Assembly: GCA_034231615.1 (NCBI GenBank)
Contig: CM067309.1
Location: forward strand, 24,233,965 to 24,297,964
Length of the DNA stretch: 64,000 nucleotides
Origin: Meghimatium bilineatum
Taxonomy: Eukaryota > Mollusca > Gastropoda > Stylommatophora > Philomycidae
Direction: 5' to 3'
Shown here: piece after piece, positions 3,401 through 60,600 of the stretch
How the letters are laid out: every line of letters starts with the position of its first letter
How positions within the stretch are numbered: position 1 is the first letter of the stretch
Program-made: the position numbers and the translations under genes
Notes under the pieces: model-generated
The model's database searches: none
What the model was told of the DNA's origin: nothing
The model's input: the letters and a program-made list of their open reading frames with translations, nothing else

Positions 3401-6400
3401 GGAAAACCTGACAGTAGAGTTGGGCCAGGGCTATATCTTTGTCCCTTTTGTGCCTGAGCCCATCGGGTACGGAACCCTTTCTCTCTGCAAGTGTACTTCC
3501 GGTATAGAAAACCTTGACAGTAGAGTTGGACCAGAACTACCATCGTTGTCCCTTTCTTGCCTAAGCCCATCGGGTACAGAACCCTTTCTCTTCGCGAGCA
3601 TATTTCCGGTCTAGGAAGGCTCGACATTAGAGTTGGATTAGGTCTTCTTACTTTACCAAACACAAATGAATGGGTCTGGGTCTCTGCCTGTAAGGAACTC
3701 AGGTAACTAGATGCTCTCTCGAGCTTACGGAACTTGTAGTTCCCCTTCCCTAGAGACTTTTCACTTTCTATTTGCAGTTCGCGCTGCCCTCTAGCGCTGT
3801 TCTGCCCTTTCATTGTTTCATTGTACTCGGTATGAAATCTATTTGTCTCTCGCCATGCAAATACGTTTACGTGCATTTTACATTGGTCGCCCCTCCAATG
3901 TTCGGACTGGACTGACTAGGTTCACTGTATGTCGACAGTGTCGCTATATGTGGTGATGCTGGTGGTGTCGGAGATATTGTCTGTCTCTTGTGCAGTCAAA
4001 TCTCTTTCCATCTGCTACCTCCACATTCTCGGACACGATCCCCAAATTATTTGGCCAGAATCAGCTCGAACTGCTGTATTTCTGTTTCGAGGGTGCACCG
4101 CGTGGAGGTACATTTGTGATCTTGGTTATCTGCTAACCCTGGGTCCGCCTATAGAAATGCGTTCCCTTTGCACCACATTTAAAAAGGTGAAAAGCAAACA
4201 ACTTCTCTGAGTTCGAACACCTATAATTGTTAGTTGCACATTCCTTGTAAAAGACATTAACATTGCAGCAGACTGAGCCATTCCAAATAACAACAATTCC
4301 CGTTAGTCTCTAGAATTTAAAAAAAAAATATTGTCCTCTGGCTTCCTACTTAAATTTACTTGTATAAACAATTATTTGAAGCAAAATTGTATTGTCTATA
4401 TATGTTATCCATGTTTACAAGAAGACCTATCGGCCCTTGTATAACTAATACGGATATTATGTTATATGTTTGTTGTTACTGAGGATATTTCAATACCTGT
4501 ACGGGATGTTTGTTGTTGTTGTAATAGTCCTTGTCTCGATTGGTCCGTTCGGGTGACTTTGTGTGCACGATTTGAATGGCTTGATGAAATCGCATCTTTT
4601 TTTGGAGATGCGGTTAGTCAAGTACTGAAACACGCGTGTGCAATTGTTGCTAGGCGATTTGGTGCCGTAGAACGGACTGGTTCAATTCCCGTTAGTCTCT
4701 AGAATTAAAAAAAAAAATATTGTCCTCTGGCTTCCTACTTAAATTTACTTCCATTCCAAATAGACGACCAAAGCTTAAAATTGTAATTTTTTAAATGACT
4801 GAACACAACAACGGTTGTTATTGTGAGAATTTGACGATCGGTCAATATGATATTAAGAACAGAAAATCAGATTAGATCAGTTTCTGTGATTGCTGATACA
4901 TAAATATGAACACGATATTGACATACATGCTAGGAGAAAGAAAAGCGAACCTGTTAAAAAAGAGTAAACATCAAATTAATTCAAAGTGCAACAATATGTG
5001 GTATAAATTCTACCATCTGTTTATTTGACCTTTGTACAATAGTCACAGAGGTAAAGGGTTAACCAATTATATTAATGGCCAATTGAACTGAACTACTGAA
5101 CAGTAATTATCGATTTTTTAAGATTTTTCACGTTTCATCGCAGTATGCCTAGGAATTAATGAGTAAGCGTGCCAAATGTAATCCGTATACGTCATGTAGT
5201 TTAGAAACCATTAGCGAACAGGAAAAACGACTGCCTACATTTTATAAAGGGATAGTTGTATTTTGGGTGGTCGACTTTCCTAATAGCTTTGTTGATGGTA
5301 GATAATTTCTTGGTCTTTTTGTTCCCTATTGCTCGATCTTTTGTTAGCATATCTGCCTCTTCGTGTCCCGGTGTGACACAGTGGGATGGTATCCACTATA
5401 CTACGTTTCCTTAGATGCTCTCTTTATAGCTTCCTTCAAGTCAGACAGCTTATCTCTGTCTTATAAGTTTGATATTTCTTCAGTACGAATCATCACATGT
5501 TGACATTGCATCAGTAAGAAATAGCACATGTGTGACATTGCATTAGTAAGAAATACCACCTGTGTGACATTGCATGAGTAAGAAATGCCACCTGTGTGAC
5601 ATTCCATGAGTAAAAAATACCACCTGTGTGACATTGCATAAATAAGAAATACCACCTGTGTGACATGGGACATTGCATCAGTAAGAAATATCACCTGTGT
5701 GACATTGCATGAGTAAGAAATGCAACTTGTGTGACATTGCATGAGTAAGAAATACCACCTGTGTGACATTGCATGAGTAAGAAATACCACCTGTGTGACA
5801 TTGCATGAGTAAGAAATATCACCTGTGTGACATTGCATGAGTAAAGAATACCACCTGTGTGACATTGCATCAGTAAGAAATACCACATGTGTGACATTGC
5901 ATCAGTAAGAAATACCACCTTTGTGATATTGCAAGAGTAAGAAATACCACCTGTGTGACATTGCAAGTGTAAGAAATACCATCTGTGTGACATTGGCTTG
6001 TTGAAAACATTAGATGAAATGTTTTATTTTTAAAATGCAAATTGTTACTCATATTGAATGGTTGTCTGAAACTGACTCCTATCCCCAGGTACATACGAGA
6101 CAGAGATCACATTTGGAGGAGAGGCAGACCTTCACCAACATTTGTCCTTGTGCGAGAAGAACCCAGGACATGATTACTTCATTCCGGTTATCAAATTCTT
6201 CGTTGGCCATCTCCCATTTCGTTACCATGACAACGGTATTGTTGACTGCATCAAAGCCTTGTCTGATCTGACCGTACGCGTATATGTAGGTTGTGTCAGC
6301 AAGAATAGACCTAAGAAAGTTCCTGGAGCGAATGTCTCGTTTCCTTCCTACAATGACGCGGGGTCAAGAATGAATAGAGTCGGAAGTGGCTGGATATGTG

Positions 6401-7095
6401 GAGTGGATAGGTACACATCCGATAACAGTTCCAAGAGAACGTGTGATTGTTCTGAATGTGCAAGCTCTGAAACACCAAAGACAGAATTTGCAAACATTAC
6501 AATCAGTACGGCAGCTCATGTTGTTTTCGACGATGTTGAAGGAAAACAAACTACCTGTCATTTATTTTATGATTACGGCGGCCGACCTGAAACCTGCAAG
6601 AATGTAGTTACCCTTCATGGAATGTCACATGTGGAGATCGATATAGAAGGGGACAACTGTAAGATGATACACGTGACTCATGACTTGGATCTTATTGGTC
6701 GCCTTGAAAACATGGTGTCCCTGTCTCATAACCTGAACGCGAAAATCCGAAACAAATACAACGTAGTAACAAAAGATGACGACCCAACATGGATGTCACA
6801 AAACATTCTCACCAGAGATTCCAAAAATCACACCCTGGCTGTAATCGTTTCCCACCCACACGGATGCAGTAAACAGATAACTGTTGGGCATTTTGCACAA
6901 ATGTTTACTATCAGTGAAGAACGGACAAAGTATACATACACTACACCGACGTGCGCTGGATCTAGTGGCGCTCCGGTCTTTCTACTGCCCAGGTCCAGTA
7001 CCTGGGGTGTTCTTGGACTACACTACGATCATCCACATGGGGGATATTGTGACAAAGCGGGTCGGTTAAACTACAGTGGCTGTGGCTGGGGGTAG
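478..7095 (+). CDS. Trypsin-like (PA-clan) serine protease-like protein, last two exons (5'-partial)
   Basis: Two exons are visible. The first, 478-543 (66 nt), follows a tttctactag acceptor and precedes a gtattc donor; it encodes AAEIVDPTDTITLARIERIK plus Q and leaves one base (G). The second, 6089-7095, follows a tatccccag acceptor and begins with GT, so the split codon GGT (Gly) restores the frame, which continues TYETEITFGGEADLHQHL and ends at TAG 7093-7095. The visible part is about 355 residues. The chymotrypsin-fold triad is recognisable: His in TAAHVV (codon 6517-6519), a likely Asp in VTHDLDL (6682-6684 or 6688-6690), and Ser in GSSGAP (6964-6966), with paired cysteines around CDCSEC and PTCAGSSG. 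The body resembles an uncharacterised secreted protease-like family that I recall from gastropods. Substrate is unknown. Upstream exons, including any signal peptide, lie left of the window. The ATG-less start of the long exon shows that it is internal. Confidence 0.82.
556..1460 (+). repeat. 38-bp minisatellite, about 24 units
   Basis: Units contain cctacttggacatgtgaatt followed by cggtctctgtt. The left end (556-720) is more diverged and the centre is nearly identical between units. It lies 13 bp downstream of the protease-like exon donor. Confidence 0.95.
1576..1665 (+). repeat. 31-bp minisatellite, left block
   Basis: About three units of the gggtttgacagatgtttatt type. The same unit resumes at 2148, so the two blocks were probably one array split by the 1666-2147 insertion. 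Confidence 0.85.
1668..1750 (+). mobile_element. tRNA-derived SINE head (fragment)
   Basis: A pol III A-box-like stretch (tacgtagtggttaag) is followed about 40 bp later by a B box (gggttcgaatcc, 1729-1740). Spacing and sequence fit a tRNA-derived SINE head. The sequence runs directly into LINE-derived sequence. Confidence 0.6.
1770..1951 (+). mobile_element. LINE reverse transcriptase C-terminal fragment
   Basis: Translation gives GRVPGKRRKGKP, one stop, then RRWTDDIKDNM and later AQDRERFREFIGK and FWKEYVT. This is the usual C-terminus of an APE-type non-LTR retrotransposon protein. Antisense relatives lie at 17540-17760, 23187-23860 and 58525-59075. Confidence 0.75.
2148..2445 (+). repeat. 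31-bp minisatellite, right block
   Basis: Nine to ten units continuing the array at 1576-1665, with increasing divergence at the right end. Confidence 0.93.
2446..3120. other. No gene seen
   Basis: An AT-rich stretch, then a GC-richer segment from about 2870. Neither strand shows a recognisable domain or element. Confidence 0.5.
3125..3640. repeat. GC-richer ~100-bp tandem repeat, about five diverged units
   Basis: Units share gagcccatcgggtac followed by gaaccctttctct, then cttccggt and gacagtagagttgg. The left units (3140-3290) are more diverged. Base composition is clearly richer in GC than the surroundings. The open frame at 3301-3876 on the minus strand is a by-product of the repeat. 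Origin unknown. Confidence 0.75.
4290..4760 (+). repeat. Locally duplicated interspersed repeat with a tRNA-like stretch
   Basis: A ~75-bp segment (attcccgttagtctctagaa, an A-run, attgtcctctggcttcctac) occurs at 4298-4375 and again at 4685-4755. The right copy is preceded by a ~240-bp sequence from 4455 that recurs at 55836-56095. The stretch 4603-4700 has a B-box-like ggttcaattcc and complementary ends, so it could derive from a tRNA. No functional tRNA is claimed. Confidence 0.65.
5493..5995 (+). repeat. 32-bp minisatellite, about 16 units
   Basis: Units read gtgtgacattgcatgagtaa followed by gaaataccacct. The array ends about 90 bp before the acceptor of the last protease-like exon, so it lies in the branchpoint region of that intron. 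Confidence 0.95.
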
Positions 7096-16539: not shown

Positions 16540-17500
16540 GTGACATCAATCAATCAATAAACCCATAACCCTTCAGGGTCGTAGGGGTACCACATTGGAT
16601 GCTTCAGCACACATAGTCCTCCAGCGAATTCTATCCTAAGCGATGTGGATGAGTGTGGAAATATCTTGCCCTGTCCATTCCTGATGTTGTCTGTCCATGT
16701 CTTTATTTGCCCTCCTCTGCTTCTTCCACCCTCGACAGTTCCCTGTAGTATAGTTTTTGACAAGGAATCGTGCCTGCATACATGTCCGAACCATGCTAGT
16801 TTTCGTCGTTTCACTATTGAAAGCAATGCCTGCTGAACACATGCACACATCTCTACTTTATTTCTTACATACACATTGGTCCTATGTTCCCTATAGGAAA
16901 TTCGTAGAATTCTTCTGTAGCATTTGTACTCGAAAGTCTGTAATCTTCTCTCCATGTCCGCAGTGAGTGTCCAACTCTCACAACCATACAACACAACAGA
17001 AAGCACCAGCGACTTATACAGTTTGATTTTCACTCCAACACTGATGTTGCTTTTCCAAATCACAGTTAGCCTTGACAAGGACGCTAAAGCCATCTCCAGC
17101 CTTATTTTTAGTTCTGCTTTGCATTTACCATCGCTGCATATACTGGATCCGAGGTATTTGAAAGTATTCACCTCCTCAAGCGTATGTCCATTCATCGTGA
17201 TATTAGTCTGGTTTTCTGTGTCTCTGCTGTTTACCAAGATTTTGCTCTTATCTGTATTGATTTCCATTCCGTACTTGCTGGTAACTTTTTCCAACTTTGA
17301 TGTTAATTCTTGCAATGATGTTTCTGACCCAGCTATAAGATCAATATCATCAGCGAAACGCAAGTTGCAAATAGGGCGACCTCCGATCGATATAGACGTG
17401 TTGTAATCATGTAATGTCTCTTGTATGATGTGCTCTAAGTATATGTTAAAAAGTATTGGGGACATTATGCATCCCTGTCGACTCCCACATTTGTTTTGAA
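16540..17500 (-). mobile_element. LINE reverse transcriptase, 3' half
   Basis: The minus-strand frame of about 320 residues includes CIMSPILFNIYLEHIIQETL, the catalytic-box NLRFADDIDL, SKYGMEINTDKSK, VNTFKYLGSSI and YGCESWTL, then LAWFGHVCRHDSLSKTILQG. This is the palm, thumb and C-terminal region of an APE-type non-LTR element. A frameshift near TWTDNIRNG breaks the end. The 3' terminus is an (ATTG)n tail. It is nearly identical to 31690-32610 on the plus strand. Confidence 0.88.
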
Positions 17501-17539
17501 GAACTCTCCAATTGTATTGTTTCACAAGACAGCACTATT

Positions 17540-28757: not shown

Positions 28758-28764
28758 TATAAAA
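28758..28764 (+). promoter_or_regulatory. TATA box candidate of the histidine-rich gene
   Basis: TATAAAA lies 191 bp before the ATG at 28955. With usual spacing, transcription would begin near 28790, giving a ~165-nt 5' leader. Position and sequence only. Confidence 0.45.
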
Positions 28765-28954: not shown

Positions 28955-31900
28955 ATGAAGGCTGTTTTATTCCTGCTTATGGCCGTTATAGGCTTTTCCT
29001 GTGCCCGACGTAAGTTACAAATTACTAGTATTAATGGCTTAGTCTTGTGCACACTTCTCTCCATTAACCATCTCATATAAGCCCATGTGCCGTGTCCGCT
29101 GGATATGTTGAACAATGTATGAACAATGTAGTCTTTATAAACAAAATATTGATATTTCATTTGGTAACATTTCAAATAAAGATTAATTATATTGTTATGT
29201 TGAATATTCAGTATAACATTTCTATGGCAAAATGTTTTTTCTTCTACGATTAACTGTTGAGCACGTAGTTCAATATTGATCATGTGTAGAGTGGTATGTT
29301 TATGTCATTTTGGATTCCTGATATTACACAACAACTGATGACGCATATATGATACTACACAACAACTGACGATGCGTCTATAGCAATACTACACGACAAC
29401 TGATGACGTGTCCATGCTAGTACATAACCCCTGCTATCAATTGTTAAACATTCAGTCCAATATTGGTCATGTATAGAATTATTTGTTTTAGGTCATCTTG
29501 GGTTCCCCACAACTTTGTCTTGCAAAGAAACTATTGAGGGCCAGTTCTGAGAGTAGCAAAACTGGGACTATTCTGTAGTATGTGCTCTAATGTCTCCGCA
29601 GACACTAATACCGATTCAGAGTATGTTTTTAAACAGTGTCTCGTTCAGTATGGAAAAAAATGGTAGCTTGATGGTGTCCATCTCCCCTTCAAATCTCCTT
29701 GTTTGAGCTGACATGAAAATATAAGTTCTATTCTACTGATACTCGCTTTGTAAACACCACTTTTCTAAAACGCGTTCTAAAACGTTCATGTCTGTGATCA
29801 ATACGAATTTTTGTGTTGCTGTTTCCAGAGTGGAAAACGTATTGGCCAGCAGCAAGAGCATACAACATTAAGATGGGAACATCAAGACGCAGAGAAAGAC
29901 CAAACAGAAGGTGGATTGGAGGAGCTACCAACACTCTGAGAAGTCACAATATTATTGCATATAAAGCGACTAAACGTGCCCTAGTTCCTCTGTAAACAGG
30001 CAGAAAAGATCTTGTGACATTGCACATCCATGTCTGTCACCCATACCTAATTTTCTCCTAAATTACTGTCAACACTTATCGCAGCTGTTTGTTTGCAATA
30101 CATACTTCTGGCTATCTCTAGATTTTTCCTATTAACATTGAGTTCTCTAAAATTGTACCATTTATCAATGCTTCACTTTAAATGATTTATTATAATCTAT
30201 GAAGCACAATTACAGGCCATCTTGTACTTCTATTACCTTCTCCATTAATGTTCATATAATACATGGGGCATTTCTTGTACTTTTTCCTTCCACAAATTAG
30301 CATTGATCTTCTATTAGTTCTGGTTTTAATTTTCCTCTCCTTCTTTTCATGATTATACGAAGTAGTATCTTGGTCATCTGTATATCTTGGTCATCTGTAT
30401 ATCTTGGTCATCTGTATATCTTGGTCATCTGTATATCTTGGTCATCTGGCTGATAAGATGTATTTTTATTTATGGTCTTCACATTCTACAGCACTTGATT
30501 TTTTTCGGTAAGGCTATGAATATTGATCTCTAAGAATTAGATGGAATACCGCCACTGTTTTAGATGCTATTTAGTCTGTTGGTGATTATGTGTATGCCAT
30601 ACTCCCCTAGCACGTCTAATTCTTCCTTTGTAATATTATCTGGTTCAGGAAATATTTTTTTTTATATTTCAAGTGTTGTGTCGTTTCATTTAACTCTGCA
30701 ATTAATATACATGGACCTTCGCTGTTGTTTTGTATGACTGTTTCATTTCTATCTTTGTAAAGTTCTTTAATGTATTCTTCCATCTGTGCATGATTTCATT
30801 TTCTCCTATTGGCATATGTCCTTGCTTTGACATCAGGCACCCAGTCTTTTGAACTTGCCTTCTACTTGTTAATTCATTTATTTGTTTATGTATATCCATT
30901 GTATTTCCATGCTGATATTTTTACATTTCACAGCATTTTGCTTTTAACCATTCTTTTGTGCATGTATTATATGTATGTTTAATTTCTTTGTTTATTTTGT
31001 AATTTTCTGAAACTTTAACGTTCTTCTTTATTGCATCAACTTTAAGATATTTTCTGTCATCTAATCTTTCTTTGCTAGATGTCTCTTAGGTAGCAAGATG
31101 TCTTCAGATGTTAGCTGTATAGATTCTTGTCACATCATCCACTTTTGCTCGATGGTCTGTATTTTCTCTATGACGTTGTATCTGTTTTGTACTGCTATCC
31201 ACGATTACCAAACCTAAAATTCATTGTTATATACTCAATATATTCTTGGGAGTCGCGTAGCGCAGTGGTTAGCGCACTGGCTTCGCATATGACTGGTCCT
31301 TGGTCCATTCCCCAGTTGAGGCGGACATTTTTTTCAGATCGCAATGACACCCGGGTCGACCCAGTCTTAAATTGGTACTGGATTAATCCGGGAAGTAAAG
31401 ACAGTGAGGGAGAGGAGATGGCTACCGCACTCATATAGCAGAGCCACTGAAATGTGAGATCGCTAATATCTCAAACCCCTACAGCATTAATAAATTCTAT
31501 GGGATACTTTACTTTTTTTTTACTCAATATATTCATTTTTTCTCTTGTTCAGAATAAGATATTCGCTATGTGTTCAAAATGTCAAGAATTCCATTCTGGC
31601 TCGTGATCTCCTATTTACAAAGAAGTATCTTTTAGATCAACAGGAAATATAGTTTGAAGACTCGGAATTAAGTGATAGACATAGTAATTTCACTGTGGGA
31701 GTTCGACAGGGATGCATAATGTCCCCAGTACTTTTTAACATATACTTAGAGCACATCATACAAGAGACATTGCATGACTACAACATGTCTATATCGATCG
31801 GATGTCGCCCTATTTGCAACTTGCGTTTCGCTGATGATATTGATCTTATAGCTGGGTCAGAACAATCATTGCAAGAATTAACATCAAAGTTAGAAAAAGT

Positions 31901-34900
31901 TACCAGCAAGTACGGAATGGAAATCAATTCAGATAAGAGCAAAATCTTGGTAAACAGCAGAGACACAGAAAACCAGACTAATATCATGATGAATGGACAT
32001 AAGCTTGAAGAGGTGAATACCTTCAAATACCTCGGATCCAGTATATGCAGCGATGGTAAATGCAAAGCAGAACTAAAAATAAGGCTGGAGATGGCTTTAG
32101 CGTCCTTGTCAAGGCTAACTGTGATTTGGAAAAGCAACATCAGTGTTGGAGTGAAAATCAAACTGTATAGGTCGCTGGTGCTTTCCGTTGTGTTGTATGG
32201 TTGTGAGAGTTGGACACTCACTGCGGACATGGAGAGAAGATTACAGACTTTCGAGTACAAATGCTACAGAAGAATTATACGAATTTCCTATAGGGAACAT
32301 AAGACCAATGTCCAGGAGCCATTGCTTTCACTAGTGAAACGACGAAAACTAGCATGGTTCGGACATGTATGCAGGCACGATTCCTTGTCAAAAACAATAC
32401 TGCAGGGAACTGTCGAGGGTGGAAGAAGCAGAGGAGGACAAATAAAGACATGGACAGACAACATCAAGGAATGGACAGGGCTAGATATTTCCACACTCAT
32501 CCGCATCGCTGAGGATAGAATTCGCTGGAGGACTCTTTGTGCTGAAGCTTCCAATGTGGTACCCCTACGACCCTGAAGGGTTATGGGTTTTATTGATTGA
32601 TTGATTGATAGTAATTTCGATGGCCTTTCACTGTGTTGGCTGAATGCGTATGGAGAAATTAGTACAAAGAAATCAATTACCTATATCCACTCTATACCTG
32701 TTCAATCGTTCACTCTAGGCCTATTCAGCCTTTTACTAAGTCAGTTCTCTATACCCATTTAACCTTTTACTCTATACCTGTTCAACTTTTCGCTCTAGAC
32801 ATATTCAACCTTTCACTCTAGAAATGTTCCCCGCCAAAGACGAATGTGTCGGGCCATTGTCGCAAATAACACAGCGACAGAATGCATTTCCATTATCTGG
32901 ACTACATTCTGCAGGAAATTTAGTAGGACCATTGCCCCGCTACAAGAAAGATCTAGTAGGAGTTTGAGAATGAGCGCTGAAGAAGAAGAAGAAGAAGACC
33001 TGTTCAATCTTTCAATCTAGACCTGCTTATATTTCACTCTAGACCTGTTTTATATTTCCCTCTAGACCTGTTTTATATTTCACTCTAGACCTGTTTTACC
33101 TTTCACTCTAGACCTGTTTTACCTTTGACTCTATACCTGTTTTACCTTTCACTCTAGACCTGTTTTACCTTTCGCTCTAGACCTTTTTTACCTTTCACTT
33201 TTCTTATCCAACATATAATATTTTGTGCTTTTCTTTTCTCCGAATAGTCATCAATGAAAACAGAATAAGAGAAATAATGAAACGCCAAGACCATCATCAT
33301 CACCACCACCACAATAACCAGACTACACCTACTCCCGGAGACGGTCCTGTCAGACGTCAAGAACATCACCATCATCATCACCATGAAAACCATACTCATC
33401 CTCAACAATCAACCACTTCAGCCACACCTGTTGCTCCTGCTAAAAGACAAGAGCACCACCCTCATGATCCTCATCACCACAACCACACCCATCCTGAACA
33501 CCCAACCACTCCAGCCACACCTGTTGTTGCTCCCGTTAAAAGACAAGAGCACCATTCTCATCCTCCTCATCACCACAACCACACCCATCCTGAACACGCA
33601 TCCACTACAGCCACACCTGTTGTTACTGCCGTTAAAAGACAAGAGCACCATTCTCACCCTCCTCATCACCACAACCACACCCATCCTGAACACGCATCCA
33701 CTACAGCCACACCTGTTGTTACTGCCGTTAAAAGACAAGAGCACCATTCTCACCCTCCTCATCACCACAACCACACCCATCCTGAACACGCATCCACTAC
33801 AGCCACACCTGTTGTTACTGCCGTTAAAAGACAAGAGCACCATTCTCATCCTCCTCATCACCACAACCACACCCATCCTGAACACGCATCCACTACAGCC
33901 ACACCTGTTGTTACTGCCGTTAAAAGACAAGAGCACCATTCTCATCCTCCTCATCACCACAACCACACCCATCCTGAACACGCATCCACTACAGCCACAC
34001 CTGTTGTTGCTCCCGTTAAAAGACAAGAGCACCATTCTCACCCTCCTCATCACCACAACCACACCCATCCTGAACACGCATCCACTACAGCCACACCTGT
34101 TGTTACTGCCGTTAAAAGACAAGAGCACCATTCTCATCCTCCTCATCACCACAACCACACCCATCCTGAACACCCATCCACTACAGCCACACCTGTTGTT
34201 ACTGCCGTTAAAAGACAAGAGCACCATTCTCACCCTCCTCATCACCACAACCACACCCATCCTGAACACCCATCCACTACAGCCACACCTGTTGTTACTG
34301 CCGTTAAAAGACAAGAGCACCATTCTCATCCTCCTCATCACCACAACCACACCCATCCTGAACACGCATCCACTACAGCCACACCTGTTGTTGCTCCCGT
34401 TAAAAGACAAGAGCACCATTCTCATCCTCCTCATCACCACAACCACACCCATCCTGAACACGCATCCACTACAGCCACACCTGTTGTTGCTCCCGTTAAA
34501 AGACAAGAGCACCATTCTCATCCTCCTCATCACCACAACCACACCCATCCTGAACACCGAACCACTCCAGCTGTAACAAGTGATGCCGTTGCTAAACGTC
34601 AGCTTCACGATGTTACACCTCCTGGTCACGTTTCTCACCCAAGCCACACACACGACCCAAACCACAGTCACCCTACACACAACCCAAACCACAGTCACCC
34701 TACACACGACCCAAACCACAGCCACCCCACACACTCTTCTACTGAAGGTCCAACTCCTGATCTACTTCAAGTTAACGTCTCCCACTCCAGCCACACCCAC
34801 GACCCAAACCACAGTCACCCTACACACGACCCAAACCACAGTCACCCCACACACGACCCAAACCACAGCCACCCCACACACTCTCCTTCTGATGCTCCAA

Positions 34901-35424
34901 CCCCAGATCCACTTCAAGTTCACCTCTCCCACCCCAGCCACACACACGACTCAAACCACAGTCACCCTACACGCGACCCAAACCACAGCCACCCCACACA
35001 CTCTTCTACTGAAGGTCCAACCCCTGATCTACTTCAAGTTAGCGTCTCCCACCCCAGCCACTCACACGACCCAAACCACAGTCGCCCTACACATGATCCA
35101 AACCAAAGCCACCCTACCCACAACCCAAACCACAGCCACCCCACACACTCTTCTACTGAAGGTCCAACCCCTGATCTACTTCAAGTTAGCGTCTCCCACC
35201 CCAGCCACTCACACGACCCAAACCACAGTCGCCCTACACATGATCCAAACCAAAGCCAGCCTACCCACAACCCAAACCACAGCCACCCCACACACTCTCC
35301 TTCTGATGCTCCAACCCCAGATCCACTTCAAGTCCACGTCTCACACCCCAGCCATTCACACAACGCAAATCATACCCGTCCAGCCCACCACGACGTCACT
35401 ACTCAAGCAGTCACGGCTGTGTAG
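28955..35424 (+). CDS. Secreted histidine-rich tandem-repeat precursor with dibasic sites
   Basis: Exon 1 (28955-29009) encodes MKAVLFLLMAVIGFSCAR, a clear signal peptide, before a gtaagt donor. Exon 2 (33248-35424) follows a pyrimidine-rich acceptor. One plus two bases form the split CTC codon, giving LINENRIREIMKR. The spliced product is 743 residues. From 33286 come 14 units, each starting with Gln directly after KR or RR. Units 3-14 are 32 residues (96 bp): QEHHSHPPHHHNHTHPEH, then ASTTATPVV and TAV or APV before KR. Each of these has an NHT sequon. From 34600 a 274-residue tail repeats DPNHSHPTH between spacers such as SSTEGPTPDLLQV, and it has no dibasic site. The mature part has no Cys. 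The dibasic-Gln layout suggests furin/convertase processing to pyroglutamyl peptides, and the His clusters suggest Zn, Cu or Ni binding. Both roles are inferred. I know no named family for it. Alternative: an uncleaved metal-binding matrix or plasma protein. Confidence 0.85.
29820..29995 (+). mobile_element. LINE C-terminal fragment
   Basis: Encodes YWPAARAYNIKMGTSRRRER and PNRRWIGGATN, resembling the arginine-rich C-terminus of LINE proteins. A short relative is at 12465-12545 (ggcaagagcatacagcatga). Confidence 0.55.
30100..31600 (-). mobile_element. RTE-like LINE remnant (linker and reverse transcriptase start), split by a SINE
   Basis: On the minus strand, fragments read TGCLMSKQGHMPIGENEIMH, RWKNTLKNF and further down LLRIIMKRRRGKLKPEL. 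This is the segment between endonuclease and reverse transcriptase of RTE-like elements, full of stops. A 17-bp tandem repeat (tatcttggtcatctgta, five units, 30368-30447) has grown inside it. Confidence 0.6.
31246..31520 (+). mobile_element. Full-length tRNA-derived SINE with 14-bp target duplication
   Basis: Begins tgggagtcgcgtagcgcagt and continues ggttagcgcactggcttcgc (A-box region), then a B-box-like ggtccattccc. The body includes ggagatggctaccgcactca and the 3' end is a T-rich run. It is bounded by identical tactcaatatattc at 31232-31245 and 31521-31534. Confidence 0.9.
31640..32610 (+). mobile_element. LINE reverse transcriptase, 3' half
   Basis: A 293-residue open frame with VRQGCIMSPVLFNIYLEHII, the catalytic RFADDIDLIAG, DKSKILVNSRDTENQ, YLGSSICSDGKCKAEL, YGCESWTLTADMERRLQ and LAWFGHVCRHDS, ending EASNVVPLRP just before its stop. 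The DNA ends ttatgggttttattgattga with an ATTG tail. It is nearly identical to 16540-17500, but with an in-frame deletion after REHKTNV. It is 5'-truncated, so it cannot transpose by itself. Confidence 0.9.
32675..33205 (+). repeat. 23-bp minisatellite before the exon 2 acceptor, interrupted
   Basis: Units contain ctctagacctgttttacctt. Blocks 32675-32821 and 33001-33205 are separated by a GAA-tailed repeat. The array ends about 40 bp before the acceptor of the histidine-rich exon. Confidence 0.85.
32822..33000 (+). mobile_element. GAA-tailed SINE-like repeat (subfamily B)
   Basis: Starts near gccaaagacgaatgtgtcgg, passes cattatctggactacattct and ends gagaatgagcgctgaagaag with a GAA run. It was inserted in the 23-bp minisatellite. 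It shares the last ~100 bp with subfamily A. Another copy is at 41652-41815. Confidence 0.8.
33448..34599 (+). repeat. Coding 96-bp repeat array (12 units)
   Basis: Starts of the unit recur exactly every 96 bp from 33448 to 34504. Differences between units are few and patchy (A/P before STTATP; TAV/APV before KR; catcct/caccct silent change). No stop codon occurs in a second plus frame or in one minus frame, a consequence of the unit being a multiple of three. Confidence 0.97.
34620..35385 (+). repeat. Coding His-Pro-Asn repeat array at the C-terminus
   Basis: Nested repeats: a 27-bp element encoding DPNHSHPTH, grouped into five larger blocks plus a half block, each block ending GPTPDLLQV or APTPDPLQV. 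Each NHS is a potential N-glycosylation sequon. Confidence 0.93.
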
Positions 35425-35469: not shown

Positions 35470-35475
35470 AATAAA
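35470..35475 (+). terminator. Poly(A) signal of the histidine-rich gene
   Basis: AATAAA lies 46 nt after the stop codon at 35422-35424, a normal distance for a short 3' UTR. The 42-bp minisatellite begins just beyond. Confidence 0.6.
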
Positions 35476-36610: not shown

Positions 36611-37439
36611 AGAGTAGAGAAATGTAAAACAAAAAAGAAGAACAAGTACACTTTGTATTCATACTTCGTTTGAGAAGACACACAATATGCAAACACCTAT
36701 TTGGATTTGGAACGAAACAAATAAGAGCTTAGTAAAATTCTTGCACAAAATTAATATACAAATAATGCTGTTAATGAGATGGATGAACCTGATTCTCTGA
36801 AAGCAATTGTTCAATATTTTGTTCACATTAGCCATTACTGAGCTATGGTCTTAACTCCATGTCCAATTATTTGTATTCAATTGCTTTTTTATCGAAAGAA
36901 AAGTGGCAACCGTGTTCAAACCTATGTCCACTAGATATGAAGATAGAAATGCTATCAACGGCTTTTTTGCAATAGTTCATTAAGCGGGATAAGCAAAAAG
37001 TATATCTTTCTCTAGCTAGAACTGATGATACCTCTTTATGATCTGTACCTTACGTTCTACGTTCGTGCTTATTTCAATCTTCTTTTCTTGTAATATGAAA
37101 TCCGATTTTTCAATGTCCCTGTAAGGATTGATAATCCACTGTGACATTTCCATAGTCAAAACATTTTCAAACCTGAGTCTGTGTGAAGGACATTTACATT
37201 GTGAAAGTGGACAAACACGTCATCATCCTGTGCGTTTGACAAGCTGGACAACTCGAAAATTTGGCGCCGTCCAATGTTTTGCTTCATTAGATTCATTATG
37301 GCAAGAAAAACTGCTATGGACATTGTTTTTATTCAACTTAGACTTCAGCCTTCTAACTTCATGTTACCTATTACATTTAATTAGCAAACCTATTAAATAA
37401 GCAATCAGGTTTTCATTTGATTACATTTTCTTTCAAAAT

Positions 37440-41950: not shown

Positions 41951-42059
41951 GGATCAATCTCCGAGCTGCCATACTGCTGAAACATGAAGATTATTTTATT
42001 TCTGCTCGCGGCTGTTTTAGGCATATGATATGCTGGATGTAAGTACTATTTACACAACG

Positions 42060-42470
42060 TGTCTCTTAAATAACAATTTCTTTATAGAAAATCGTCCTCA
42101 CTGCCACTCTGTAAGCCTCTCGGGTTTTTGCAAGCTGTCCAGCCTCTTCCAATGTCATCTTCAGAAGGTCTTCGATATTCTGTTCCCAAGGTAATCTTGG
42201 TCTGTCTCCATGATTAATCTCTCTAAGCCATTGTTCCTTTTTATATATCCGAAATATGATAGCTTCTGTTTTTAATAGTTTTGATGAGCCACTCATCTAC
42301 TATGTTCAGGCCTTTGTGAACGTCTACTGTGGTGCGTCTTTCTGACCATTATATTCTTAGGACTTTTATATAACTTTTCATTTCGAATTCAAATATTTTC
42401 TTTTTCATTACGGATGTTCTTGCCCACATCTCACAACCATATGTTTGTCTCTGTAAAAAAATATAACGTG
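42060..42470 (-). mobile_element. LINE C-terminal fragment in the paralogue's intron
   Basis: Minus-strand QTYGCEMWARTS, HGDRPRLPWEQNIEDLL, MTLEEAGQLAKTREAYRVAV: the region after the reverse transcriptase thumb through the C-terminus. The array at 42470-43490 follows at its 5' side. Confidence 0.7.
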
Positions 42471-43490
42471 GTGTATCATGACGTGGTTATAGTTTCCATA
42501 CAGTCGTACCTTGACGTGGTTATAGCTTCCATACAGTTGTACCTTGACGTGGTTATAGCTTCCATACAGTTGTACCTTGACGTGGTTATAGCTTCCATAC
42601 AGTTGTACCTTGACGTGGTTATAGCTTCCATACAGTCGTACCTTGACGTGGTTATAGCTTCCATACAGTTGTACCTTGACGTGGTTATAGCTTCCATACA
42701 GTTGTACCTTGACGTGGTTATAGCTTCCATACAGTTGTACCTTGACGTGGTTATAGCTTCCATACAGTCGTACCTTGACGTGGTTATAGCTTCCATACAG
42801 TTGTACCTTGACGTGGTTATAGCTTCCATACAGTTGTACCTTGACGTGGTTATAGCTTCCATACAGTCGTACCTTGACGTGGTTATAGCTTCCATACAGT
42901 TGTACCTTGACGTGGTTATAGCTTCCATACAGTCGTACCTTGACGTGGTTATAGCTTCCATACAGTCGTACCTTGACGTGGTTATAGCTTCCATACAGTT
43001 GTACCTTGACGTGGTTATAGCTTCCATACAGTCGTACCTTGACGTGGTTATAGCTTCCATACAGTTGTACCTTGACGTGGTTATAGCTTCCATACAGTTT
43101 TACATCGACGTGATTATAGCTTCCATACAGTTGTACATTGATGTCATTATAGCTTCCATACAGTTGTACCTTGACGTGATTATAGCTTCCATACAGTCGT
43201 ACCTTGACGTGGTTATAGCTTCCATACAGTCGTACCTTGACGTGGTTATAGCCTCCATACAGTCGTACCTTGACGTGGTTATAGCCTCCATACAGTTGTA
43301 CCTTGACGTGGTTATACGAAGCTTCCATACAGTTTTACATTGACGTGATTATAGCTTCCATACAGTTGTACATTGATGTGATTATAGCTTCCATACAGTT
43401 TTACATCGACGTGATTATAGCTTCCATACAGTTGTACCTTGACGTGATTATAGCTTCCATACAGATGTACTTTAACGTGGTTATAGCTCT
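42470..43490 (+). repeat. 33-bp minisatellite, about 31 units
   Basis: Units read ttgacgtggttatagcttcc followed by atacagttgtacc; c/t variation in gtcgtacc/gttgtacc makes a patchy pattern. Because 33 is a multiple of three, long open frames exist on both strands (for example 42408-43343). They are not genes. Confidence 0.97.
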
Positions 43491-44039
43491 AGAAATAATT
43501 GTTATGGGTACTATGTATATAATAGTGTAAGATACGACGCACGTGAGATATTAAAAACTTCCAGAAAGTAACATGATGATGATGATACACATGAAGAGGA
43601 TGACCAGCGTGCTCAGAATGGGAGACATACAGAGTAGCAGTGACGACAACGCTCTGCTAAGAACAGGCCACATATATGACGTATTGTGTATACGAGGTAA
43701 TGTAGAAAAGAGAGGGAAAATAAAAAGAACAAATATAGGTCTAATACCACAAATAATTACAAAAAATAATATTTTAAAATATTGTCATTATTTCCACCAT
43801 CTTGTAATTTTGTATCTAAGTGACGACAGAACACAAATTGTTGCTACGTTTATAGGCGTTTGTTGTAGTAATACATTGTTAATTCATGTTGGTCTTACTT
43901 TTGGCACATCATAACAAATTGTGTTATGTATATTGTATTATTGCATGTTACTGTCATGTCAGTGGTGTTTGTTTGTTTATATATATATATGGTAATCTAT
44001 GACAGTGAAGAAAGATTTTTTTTGTTTTCTTCTCTATCT

Positions 44040-44520
44040 CCATATTCATTCATTCATTTTCCTTTTGCGCTGAAATTAGCCATAGGGCAGAGGTCAGATC
44101 TCTCCAATTCTGTCTTTTCAAAGTTATTCTGTGCAGTTCTTGAATAGTATGAATATTGTTTGTTTTACTTTCTCTAAGTATTGTTCTTCTGAGTGTTTCT
44201 TTTGGTCTATCCCTGGCTCTTGTGCCTGTAGGTATCCATTCAAAAGATTGATGGTGTATTTTGTTGATACCTGCATGTAGGACCAACGGCGTTTTCTGAT
44301 AACATCTGTGATTAAATTTTGATGTGTCTCTTCTCTGATTTTACCATTCGATTTGAATTCACTCCAATGGGTGTTAGTTATCCTGCGAAGACATTAATAT
44401 TCATATATTGGTTCCAAAATCTTTTGTAATGTGGTCCCCAAGTCTTATTCGAAATTTGATAATTTTGAGGAAACAGTCGTCTTCTATCTGTGACACATCG
44501 GGATGTAACATCTTACACTT
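44040..44520 (-). mobile_element. LINE C-terminal fragment of another family
   Basis: Minus strand encodes FEWIPTGTRARDRPKETLRR, TILRESKTNN, ITLKRQNWRDLTSALW: the GRPK-x-x-W-R-R region and final helix of CR1/R1-like LINE proteins. Confidence 0.7.
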
Positions 44521-44914
44521 CTGTTCGACAGTGTTACAGAGGAATCTCTTTATAGCGTATCATGTTATAGTGCATCCTTTCATAGAGCATCCTTTTATAG
44601 CGCATTTTATTCGCTGTATTTTTATATTGGCTGTTTTTCCCCCAATTTTTCCTTAATTTGGACTGTTCGAGTAAAGCGTTACTATAGTAAAGTGCGCGTT
44701 TGTCTCCCTTGTGAACTAATGACACATTTTTTGTTTATGTTCATTCCTCCATTACGAAGTGTTTAATTCGGCTCCTTATTTCAGATTTAAAGTCTTAGAC
44801 AGATCTCTCTCCCACTGTCAACTTTTCTTGGCTTCCTTATCCGCTACCTTATTTCCTGCGATTCGGATATCTGCTAGAGGCGCATAGCATAATCTCAACG
44901 TGTCTCAAATATAT

Positions 44915-45240
44915 TTTTGTTCATCAATAGTTGATCACCGCTATTGTCTACTATCTCCGTAATTACTAAGCGTGTGGGCTTCATATTGTGCATGACTGTA
45001 TTTCACATGGTAATTTGTACCATAAACCCATATACTTGTGTGGCTATCAACAAACAAGTTTTGCTACCATAAAAAACGACATTCGTAGCGACTGCTGCGA
45101 TAAATCTGTTCAGTCTATATAATAATTAATCATAAATCTTTAACGTGGTTATGAAATAATACACTCATGCAAAATATGAAGCCCATACACTCAGTAATTA
45201 CGGAGAGAATAGACAATAACCGCGATCAAGTATTGATACA
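44915..45240. repeat. Imperfect long inverted repeat (MITE-like)
   Basis: Left arm from about 44920 to 45005 (ctccgtaattactaagcgtg, gggcttcatattgtgcatga) pairs with the right arm 45150-45240 (tgcaaaatatgaagccc, ctcagtaattacggag), with a spacer of about 145 bp. Arms are roughly 85% complementary by eye. No target duplication identified. Confidence 0.75.
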
Positions 45241-45407
45241 CATTACATTAACTCGTGTATACAAGTAAATTCAAGTAGGAAACTTGAGGATACATAACGA
45301 TAGTTCTCGTTTCAATTATTCCATTCTTAGTGACTTTGAGTACTCAGTTCAATGTCAGACATTATTTGTCAGTCACGTTATTTTTTTAATTTTCTTTTGT
45401 TGGAGTT

Positions 45408-45488
45408 AGCAAGTAAACAGGTTTCCTGTACTTGACCAACCACAACCCCCTTGTGGTTGGTCAAGTACAGGAAACCTGTTTACTTGCT
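45408..45488. repeat. Perfect 38-bp inverted repeat with 5-nt loop
   Basis: Left arm 45408-45445 and right arm 45451-45488 are exactly complementary, separated by CCCCC. The centre reads ggtcaagtac on the right and gtacttgacc on the left. Transcription would give a 38-bp hairpin. Confidence 0.95.
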
Positions 45489-45924
45489 GTTACTTGTGTA
45501 AAAGTCAATGTCATACGTTTGAAAACAAGCAGAACTGCAGGACATGCGAGACGATGATTTAATACATCAGAATTAATGTTAAAATTAGAAGAAAAAGCGC
45601 TAATCATACCCAAAAAATCGTACTTCTGACATATTTCTTTCATATGTTGCCTATATTTACTTTACATAGTGGGGATGTGGTTGAGATCCAGCGATCCATG
45701 GGCTCATACACTCTGACCAATTCCTGCGTGTGTTATATGTAAATATTTGATAAGTTGTTATTTTGTTCTATTTATCTAGCTCTGAAGAGTAATCCAGTGG
45801 GATGTACAATATAGCCCTTATGTGTGATATTGTTACTGAGAAATATGCTTACTGCGCATTCTTTTATAACGCGTCTTTTATAGCGTATTCTGTTAAAACT
45901 CTGACATGCACAAAATTAAGACAT

Positions 45925-46605
45925 ACAATCTACTCTAACATACAATCTACTCTGACACATAATCTACTCTGACACATAATCTACTCTAACACACAATCTA
46001 CTCTAGCACATAATCTACTCTAACACATAATCTACTCTAACATACAATCTACTCTAACACACAATCTACTCTGACACACAATCTACTCTGACACACAATC
46101 TACTCTGACACACAATCTACTCTAACACACAATCTACTCTAACACACATTCTACTCTAACACATAATCTACTCTGACACACAATCTACTTTAACACACAA
46201 TCTACTCTGACACACAATCTACTCTGACACACAATCTACTCTGACACACAATCTACTCTAACATACAATCTACTCTAACACATAATCTACTCTAACACAC
46301 AATCTTCTCTGACACACAATCTACTCTAACACACAATCTACTCTCACATACAATCTATTCTGACACACAATCTACTCTAACATACAATCTACTCTAACAC
46401 ACAATCTACTCTAAACACACAATCTACTCTGACATACAATCTACTCTAAACACACAATCTACTCTGACACACAATCTACTCTGACATACAATCTACTCTA
46501 AACACACAATCTACTCTGACACACAATCTACTCTGACACACAATCTACTCTGACACACAATCTACTCTGACACACAATCTACTCTGACTTACAATCTACT
46601 AAACA
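45925..46605 (+). repeat. 17-bp minisatellite, about 40 units, just upstream of the paralogue's exon 2
   Basis: Units read ctctgacacacaatcta or ctctaacacacaatcta. The array ends about 65 bp before the acceptor AG at 46667-46668. Confidence 0.96.
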
Positions 46606-47534
46606 GTTAATATACTGTGTTTATATTTTTCTTAAAAATACAATGACTGTTTATGTTGTTTCTTCTAGTAATAAATGAAAACAGACTAAGAAGAATCTTC
46701 AAACGAGAAGACAACCGCCTAGAATATCACTACCATAATCACACTGATCTTCAGCAAACCGTGATTACAACCATACACAGACAGGGGGATCAGAAGCGTC
46801 AAATTAACGATTACACAAATGCAAATGACGCTCATGTCACTGCTGTAGGCCCTACTGAAATGCCCCATGTCTCACAAAGTACAAGTCACAATCAACATAT
46901 CCAGTACTATATGAATGCCAGTAATGTCCCCACTGCAAGTACACTTCTCTCAAACAGTACACGCTACAGTCGTCATAACCATTCCAATCTGAAAACCACG
47001 AAGGGGCCCACTACAAGTCCACTTGTCTCACAGAGTACAAGCCACAATCATCCTACCCACTCAGATCTGACCACTGTTGAAAGTTCCACTGCAAGTCCAC
47101 TTGTCTCACACAGCACACGCTACAATCGTCCAACCCACTCCGAAATGAAAACTTCTGAAACTCCCACAGCAAGTGTACTTATCTCACACAGCACACGCTA
47201 CAATCGTCCAACCCACTCCGAACTAACAAGTGCTCAAGCTCCCACTGCAAGTCCACTTGTCTCACACATCACACGCTACAATCGTCCGACCCACTCCAAA
47301 CTGACAAGTGCTGAAGCTCCCACTGCAATCCCACTTGTCTCACACACCGCACTCTCTACGTCTTCGACCGCGTCGACTAACACAACCCACACTTATCCAG
47401 CCCACAATAAAATCACGAATCCATTATAGTAACGTCTGTGTTGCTAACAAACAGTACTTTCTGTATCTTATGTAGGAAACTTAAATTAAGTAATCATATT
47501 TGAATATCACTGATTGTTTTTTTTCTCGCTAGTG

Positions 47535-57600: not shown

Positions 57601-60600
57601 AGTTCTACAGAACATGAAATGTCACTTCAAATGTTAGTTCTACAGAACATGAAATGTCACTTCAAATGGTAGTTCTACAGAACATGAAATGTCACTTCAC
57701 ACGTTAGTTCTATAGAACATGAAATGTCACTTCAAATGTTAGTTCTACAGAACATGAAATGTCACTTCAAATGTTAGTTCTACAGAACATGAAATGTCAC
57801 TTCAAATGTTAGTTCTACATCAAGTACCAACTCTTATATAACCTGTTATTTTTGTCTTAGTTGTACAAATGTGCAAATCACTTGAAAATGGATGTACATT
57901 CTACTTATTACACACTTACCAGTTAGAGCGACACCACCTGAGTACACAACAGTGCGAGCACCAACTTGACCAGATAACTGGAACACACCATTCACGCGCT
58001 GATACTTGAGCGTGACAGTATACCAACCATCCTGTAAACACAGTTTGTAATTGTTGTCATTAATGTCGGCGATGATGTTAATTGTCACAATAATGATTGT
58101 CGAATAGGGATGATAATGGATAAAATAATGATGGAGCCGGTAAAGATAATAATTGAGATGGTAATGAAGACAGTAGTAATATTTATTGGAAATGGCAATA
58201 GTGATAACGATGGAAGTGGTAATGATGATAGTGATTCTTTTGATGATAATGGTAGTTGTTTTTTTTAAACGTTCATTCTCAAAATCCCAATGCGATCTCT
58301 CTTGTAGCAGGATAATGATCCTACTAGATTTCCAGCAGGATGTAGTTTAGAGAAAAGAGATACGTTTTATCAACATTTTATGTGCTAATTGCCAAACACA
58401 TCCAACTTTACCAATAATGATTACTGAATACAATGGCAATTTTTATTATACAACTAATGCTTCAACTTCGATAAGATACTTAAGACTGAAATTTAGACTC
58501 ACTTGTCGTGTCGATTAACTGATCATCATCAGGTGACATATTCTTTCCAGAACGTAGTCTTTCCTATGGATCTCTTGAATTCTCCGCGGTCTTGAGCAAG
58601 CTGTCCTGCCTCTTCCAGTGACATGCGCAGGTATTCCTGAATGTCTTTTGTTCAACGACGTCATGGGTGGCCTTTGTCCCTGTTGTCTTCTATTATTCCG
58701 TCCTGTAACACTCTTTCCATGCTGTCGTTTCTCTTAATGTGACCGAAAAAAACTCGCTTTTTTTAAATATGGTGTTCAGAAACCAGCCTTCCTGTGCGTA
58801 AATTGTTCGTAACACCTCCTGGTTTGTTTTCCTTGCTGTCCATGGTGTTCTCAAAACTCTTCTATAGCACTTTAATTCAAATGATGTTATTCTCTTGGCC
58901 ACTGTTTTATTTAGTGTCCATGCTTCACATCCATATTTCGCCACAGGAAATACACATATTCGTAGTAAGCACAAATTGTTTCTTATGTTAGTACTTTGCC
59001 ATAGTTTCTTTAGCTGTTTTAATTTTGCCAGCGCTATTACATGTTTTAAATAGAAATGGTCTTGCATATATTATAGAACAAGAGGCAAATTGTTACATGC
59101 ATAAGTTTAAATGTGCAAGCGTGAATTAAATTAAACATATGACTATGTGTGTATAGTTCTTCTTCTTCTTCTTCTTTTTTCTGTCCTCATGTACCTTTCG
59201 GTGTTGAGGGGAGAGTGAGTGTACGGTCTTTTGCCCTTCTATTTGCCTCCTCTGCTGTTATATTTCCGAGTGTCTCTAATAAACTATCCACCTTTTACGA
59301 GGGTGTCCAATAGGTCTCCTGTTTTCGTATCGTTTGTTGAGTGTTTTTTGGATAATACTTTGCTCTTTCTGTCTGGTTATGTGGCCCTACCATTTAACTT
59401 GTTGTTTCTGTATGTATTCTATTGTTGGTTTGATTCCTAATTGTTTCCTTAGTGCTTCATTCCTGATTTTGTCTCTCAAGCTAACTCCAATCATACGTCT
59501 CACACATTTCATTTCAGTGGTGTTAATCTTATGTATTGTTCTAGAATCTAATGTCCAAATTTGACACTGATAACACAATGTTGGTAAGAAAATGGTGTTG
59601 AAAAGCGCGTTCTTTGTTTCTAGTGTAATATCTTTGTTTCTTAGTAAAGGTGTTAATTGACCACTGATCTGACAGGCCTTATTACATCTTGCGTTTATTT
59701 CTGCTTCTTGTTTGTTGTCATATCTCAATGTGCTGCCAAGATATTTGAATTCATCTACTTGTTTTAGTTGTTTATTATTTATCTGTATGTTGATGTTCTC
59801 CTTTTCTCTTGCAATATTCATTACTTCTGTTTTGTCTATGTTGATTTTCATTCCAAATTGCTTGCCTGCTGTGTCTATTGTGTTTAGGTGGTCTTGCAGG
59901 TTTTTAATGCTGTTGTGGAATAAAACCTGGTCATCTGCAAAAAGCAGTTCATTTGCTTCATTAGAATTTGCTGTTTTGTTTATATGGTCCATGTATGTAA
60001 TAAAAAGTAGTGGGGATAATACACATCTCTGCTTTACTCCTGTGATAATCACAAAGTCCTCTGTGTAGCCTGCAGCTGTTCTTATAGTGCAACTGCTGTT
60101 GCTATAGAGACTTCTACAAACGTTAATTAAATGTTGGCATACTCCATACATTTTTAATGTTTCCCATAGTTTTTCTCTGTTTACTCGGTCAAATGCTTTC
60201 TCTTGATCTATGAAGGATATGTATAAATTTTGGTTGTATTCTATTGACTTCTCTGCCAACTGTTTCAGAATAAATATTGCATCAGTACATCATCTGTTTC
60301 TTCTAAAACCCATTTGTGTATTGCTAAGTTGTTGTTCTATTACAGGTCTCAGTCTTTTCTCTACTATTTTTGCATATAGTTTTCCTGCATGGCTTAACAA
60401 GGAAATTCCCCTGTACTGGTTACAGTCTCTTTTGCTGCCTTTCCTTTTCCATATTGGCACTATGATAGCTTTTCTCCAGTCTGTTGGTGTCTTCTGTTGC
60501 CTCCACGCTGTGTTAAAAATTCTGTGTAGCCAATATAATCCTGTTTCTCCTGCTGCTCTTATAATTTATAGTGGTTATTTAATAATATAATTTATAATGA

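Follow-up and report, generated by a model that had tools for sequence, protein, structure and literature searches.

A tandem-array gene of Meghimatium bilineatum with the layout of a secreted precursor of histidine-rich peptides

In a 64,000-nucleotide stretch of the Meghimatium bilineatum genome (C12:24233965-24297964, hereafter the window), a two-exon gene, gene A, encodes a histidine-rich protein punctuated by dibasic sites. On balance, we read it as a secreted multi-copy precursor that would release histidine-rich peptides bearing N-glycosylation sequons. Multi-copy precursors and histidine-rich metal-binding peptides are already known separately; cut as predicted, the gene A protein would represent a peptide-precursor route to the mass production of glycosylated metal-binding peptides.

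The two-exon structure of gene A is well supported by its sequence. Exon 1 (28955-29009, + strand; MKAVLFLLMAVIGFSCAR) ends in phase 1 and looks like a signal peptide when judged by eye, a pattern similarly kept in the paralogue described below. A GT...AG intron of approximately 4.2 kb (29010-33247, +) separates it from exon 2 (33248-35424, +), with the donor CGAC/GTAAGT and the acceptor CCGAATAG/TC. Joined, the two exons form a single frame of 743 amino acids, 185 of them His, that includes 30 N-x-S/T sequons. Exon 2 opens with the propeptide LINENRIREIMKR (33248-33285, +), which ends in KR, continues through an array of 14 units (33286-34599, +), each running from Gln to KR or RR, and closes with a Gln-starting C-terminal domain of 274 amino acids (34600-35424 with the stop codon, +) composed of His-rich repeats. 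String matches add a putative TATA-like box, TATAAAA (28758-28764, +), and an AATAAA polyadenylation signal (35470-35475, +). The preliminary description had proposed this succession of signal-like exon, propeptide, 14 Gln-starting units and Gln-starting C-terminal domain, and the 743-residue frame bears it out.

The same description had counted 15 dibasic sites, all followed by Gln, and this count is exact: the protein has 15 KR or RR pairs, with Gln as the next residue in 15 of 15. The units that they bound measure 24, 30 and, in twelve cases, 32 residues; each bears one N-x-S/T sequon, and units 4-13 vary at just three residue positions (19, 28 and 29). Between residues 32 and 469, the lone basic residue outside the dibasic sites is R456. 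Among 5,000 shuffles of the whole protein, KR/RR pairs averaged 1.2 (maximum 7) and pairs followed by Gln averaged 0.04 (maximum 2), against 15 observed for both. With most unit copies removed, Gln still follows six of six dibasic sites, whereas none of 20,000 shuffles had more than two such sites. The junctions use only four distinct codon spellings (AAACGC-CAA, AGACGT-CAA, AAAAGA-CAA and AAACGT-CAG), so that the number of independent events is approximately four.

These junctions also bear on a different reading, rather unlikely in our estimate yet the likeliest of the alternatives, in which the protein stays uncut. Gene A would then encode a histidine-rich, glycosylated secreted protein of mucus, of shell or egg matrix, or a carrier, in which His clusters form metal bridges that cross-link or load it and KR is punctuation copied by slippage. 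The composition of the C-terminal domain, with 22% His and 16 sequons, is as expected of a matrix protein, and the array is a 96-bp tandem repeat, so that most junctions are copies. A parallel exists in hexactinellid sponges, where the secreted, His-rich protein glassin, which acts in silica deposition, is described as repeated in tandem and as containing His/Asp, Pro and His/Thr parts; unlike gene A, it is described with neither a dibasic layout nor a role as peptide precursor in the available part of PMC10772126. Against an uncut protein stand the four spellings of the junction, R456 being the one basic residue of the array outside these sites and the presence of a KR/Q site in the paralogue as well.

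The openness of the array is not in itself informative, since a second + strand frame, as well as the - strand, is open across the same region. Minisatellites abound in the window, where Tandem Repeats Finder gives 83 rows; some of them carry long open frames, such as 42288-43343, and further examples occur at loci L008, L010 and L011. Because open frames over tandem repeats are so common here, it is the boundaries of the units and not their openness that count as an argument, and the abundance of minisatellites calls for caution before an open repeat frame in this genome is taken for a gene. It also means that slippage may account for much of the length of the array. Within the array the data do not demonstrate selection: the 12 long units have a pN/pS of 0.87, based on 18 distinct nonsynonymous and 7 distinct synonymous changes, where synonymous sites make up 22.3 of the 96. 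The three codon positions differ 23, 7 and 12 times, with no excess at the third.

An array pN/pS near 1, the frequency of such open minisatellites and the interruption of the neighbouring paralogue B would all be in keeping with gene A being no working gene, only an in-frame minisatellite within a decaying gene like B. We consider this very unlikely, as it is at odds with a start, splice sites, a polyadenylation signal and 743 open codons that extend across diverged parts of the protein. Furthermore, the C-terminal repeats have their lowest pN/pS in the true frame (0.36, 0.63 and 0.62, below both shifted frames). These comparisons overlap and count 19-32 differences each, and in one of the shifted frames the ratio likewise stays under 1 (0.79-0.93, as calculated from the rates).

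Paralogue B (41984-47429, +) is the sole relative that we found. It retains the propeptide LINENRLRRIFKR, a single KR/Q site and C-terminal repeats related to those of A. Its exon 1 (41984-42038, +; MKIILFLLAAVLGI, then a stop and YAG) has a TGA in frame, while exon 2 (46669-47429, +; LINENRLRRIFKRED...) contains one KR/QIND site and C-terminal repeats of 26 residues. Aligned between A and B, the signal-like part and propeptide reach a score of 91, where the best of 2,000 shuffles reaches 42, and have pS 0.42 and pN 0.22; the C-terminal domains reach 192, where the best of 500 shuffles reaches 139. The stretch between the two KR sites of B shares HYHNHT with the units of A, albeit marginally, with 19 of 2,000 shuffles matching the score to unit 2 and 14 of 2,000 that to unit 3. 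B also has exceptions to the Gln rule, with Glu after its first KR and Ile after its RR.

Given the in-frame TGA of exon 1 and a pN/pS of 1.10 among its repeats, paralogue B is probably a pseudogene, unless another exon 1 is used. A hydrophobicity scan for such an exon yielded two unconvincing candidates, at 37038 and 43886; the splice phases of A exon 1 and B exon 2 are compatible. The pair suggests a route by which the array may have grown, as the two KR sites of B enclose a single stretch, compared with the fourteen units of A, and the simplest history would be a one-unit precursor that was duplicated, with the unit then amplified in A. Together with the near absence of stray basic residues and the varied KR-Q codons, paralogue B strengthens the reading of gene A as a precursor.

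Searches of the organism's own genome covered a 1.61-Gb assembly in 32 contigs, and no third copy was present among the matches opened genome-wide with four queries (the N-terminal 131 residues of A, exon 2 of B, the acceptor/INENR pattern and the C-terminal domain of A). The N-terminal query gave 15 matches at E 1e-3, seven of them gene A itself, five on C9 that form one minisatellite and three on C10 that were left unopened. With exon 2 of B as the query, its own locus was recovered along with 23 others that match weakly, at E 8e-4 to 1; the two loci opened from these, L010 and L011, are minisatellite frames. The acceptor/INENR pattern occurred at 60 places, compared with 43 for a reversed control; all 58 places outside the window were read in frame, none being open for more than 51 codons, and several have a dibasic pair, none of which is followed by Gln. 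The C-terminal domain found itself and 13 others, of which the best five, when opened, were minisatellites and eight stayed unopened. Across 40 kb of flank on each side, neither an additional exon 1 or exon 2 start nor an additional propeptide motif passed the thresholds applied.

Neither Pfam (at cut-off) nor NCBIfam assigns a family to A or B. Protein searches, which have no bearing on other snails, returned no homologue of A with six array units removed (551 residues; E 1e-3, 7,995 scored), of B exon 2 (E 10, 5,508 candidates) or of A residues 1-60 (E 10, two candidates), and a sequence search of the PDB gave three matches that are not significant (E 0.06-0.09).

Proprotein convertases cut after KR or RR, and furin prefers RXXR. 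In gene A, P4 is basic at 0 of 15 sites, which rules out furin as the typical mode of processing and leads us to expect cutting of the PC1/PC2 type. The interpretation put forward in the preliminary description is upheld in part: its precursor reading is the best one, supported by B, the codon spellings and the scarcity of stray basic residues, and its pyroglutamate and metal binding remain predictions. A PC1/PC2-type convertase would cut after KR or RR in secretory granules and a carboxypeptidase would trim off the basic pair. The predicted products are 14 peptides of 22-30 residues, each approximately 30% His with one N-glycosylation sequon, and a further 274-residue C-terminal piece rich in His and sequons. 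The His cluster, along with glycosylation, may hinder cutting.

If such peptides acted on receptors, gene A would be a neuropeptide or hormone precursor, to which we assign a slim chance. A prohormone-type precursor is characterized by an N-terminal signal peptide and several peptide copies flanked by mono- or dibasic sites; gene A has a start that looks signal-like by eye, 14 units and 15 dibasic sites. Its layout resembles that of molluscan multi-copy proneuropeptides, which, in the portion of PMC6425005 available, have a signal peptide, repeated peptides flanked by dibasic sites and possible pyroglutamination. In contrast to these, however, the units of gene A have a low-complexity, His-rich composition and a glycosylation sequon in each of the 14; Gly precedes none of the 15 dibasic sites, so that amidation is not expected, and we recognized no known peptide among them. 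The Aplysia histidine-rich basic peptide of neurons R3-R14, compared by name only (as cited in that portion of PMC6425005), is also from a gastropod and is also named for histidine, but is called basic. The likeliest use of the gene A products is instead as an exocrine metal-binding effector, which would withhold or buffer metal in a secretion or hold secreted metalloproteases inactive.

Once the basic pairs have been trimmed off, His makes up 30-32% of each unit, along with 2-3 acidic residues, 0-1 Arg and no Lys. Peptides of this composition would not be classical cationic membrane peptides at neutral pH and are more likely to act by chelating Cu, Zn or Ni, the likeliest of the chemical activities that we would infer for them. 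Their N termini add a further element. N-terminal Gln can cyclise to pyroglutamate. Each of the 15 dibasic sites of gene A is followed by Gln-x-His (QDH, QEH thirteen times and QLH), which agrees with the ATCUN copper/nickel site, defined as X-Z-His at an N terminus with a free amine and Z other than Pro (PMC8277166, in its available part). With the amine free, that is, with Gln uncyclised, these starts would form a Cu/Ni ATCUN site; pyroglutamate would block it, so that the two are mutually exclusive on one peptide. The occurrence of His at the third place in three distinct tripeptides has a chance of approximately 1.5%, and we treat it as a lead for ATCUN and not as proof. The corresponding starts in paralogue B, EDN and QIN, do not fit.

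Taken further, the Gln-x-His starts would allow a more specific proposal, itself unlikely, of copper peptides gated by proteolysis: each cut would create a high-affinity ATCUN site that the uncut chain lacks and that glutaminyl cyclase would switch off by forming pyroglutamate. Were this true, gene A would supply fourteen copper-binding glycopeptides and a C-terminal piece likewise starting with Gln-x-His, their metal affinity being set by processing. In either case, gene A provides exact peptide masses, with a predicted [M+H]+ for the commonest unit of 3313.538 as pyroGlu and 3330.565 as free Gln, together with a chemical question, namely pyroglutamate or copper site.

Among histidine-rich secreted proteins, vertebrate histidine-rich glycoprotein carries cystatin domains; none was detected in gene A with Pfam at E 0.1, where Flagellar_put alone came up, its 17.5 bits falling short of the cut-off of 21.1. 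The viper peptides pHpG-H5, -H7 and -H9 start with acidic residues and continue with a run of His, so that EDDH(7) of pHpG-H7, EDDH(7)GVG(10), which is reported to inhibit MMP-1 through zinc, can be set beside QDHHHHHHH of unit 1 and QEHHHHHHH of unit 2 (PMC12108757, available part). Unlike them, the gene A protein has no poly-Gly, with 7 Gly in all and no Gly run, and it has a KR-bounded tandem array and sequons; the likeness is likely to be convergence and we claim no homology. Shepherins I and II of plants, 28 and 38 residues long and rich in Gly and His, both come from one secreted precursor, but they differ in being Gly-rich and two in number, with dibasic boundaries not described in the available text of PMC4695807. 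Histatin 5, too, is secreted and His-rich; it binds zinc and carries at its N terminus an X-X-His site for copper/nickel (PMC8391865, in the part available), although it is a single peptide.

A multi-copy precursor, His-rich metal-binding peptides and a sequon in every unit were not recognized together among the papers listed by targeted searches of the open-licence literature, which leaves out most subscription journals. The earlier suggestion that histidine-rich secreted proteins are not known to be organized in this way is to be tempered by the partial analogues found in viper pHpG, the shepherins and glassin.

Elsewhere in the window, a 339-codon open frame at 6076-7095 (+) weakly matches the trypsin-like family PF13365 (E 4.6e-4, 21.4 bits against a cut-off of 27.6). 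ARAGORN finds no tRNA gene anywhere in the window; in the intron of gene A, the segment at approximately 31250-31520 resembles by eye what we take to be a tRNA-derived SINE. Reverse-transcriptase fragments (PF00078) lie at 16554-17534 (-), 31653-32576 (+) and 59387-60289 (-), the second of them inside the same intron, and the first two are, by eye, close copies of one another.
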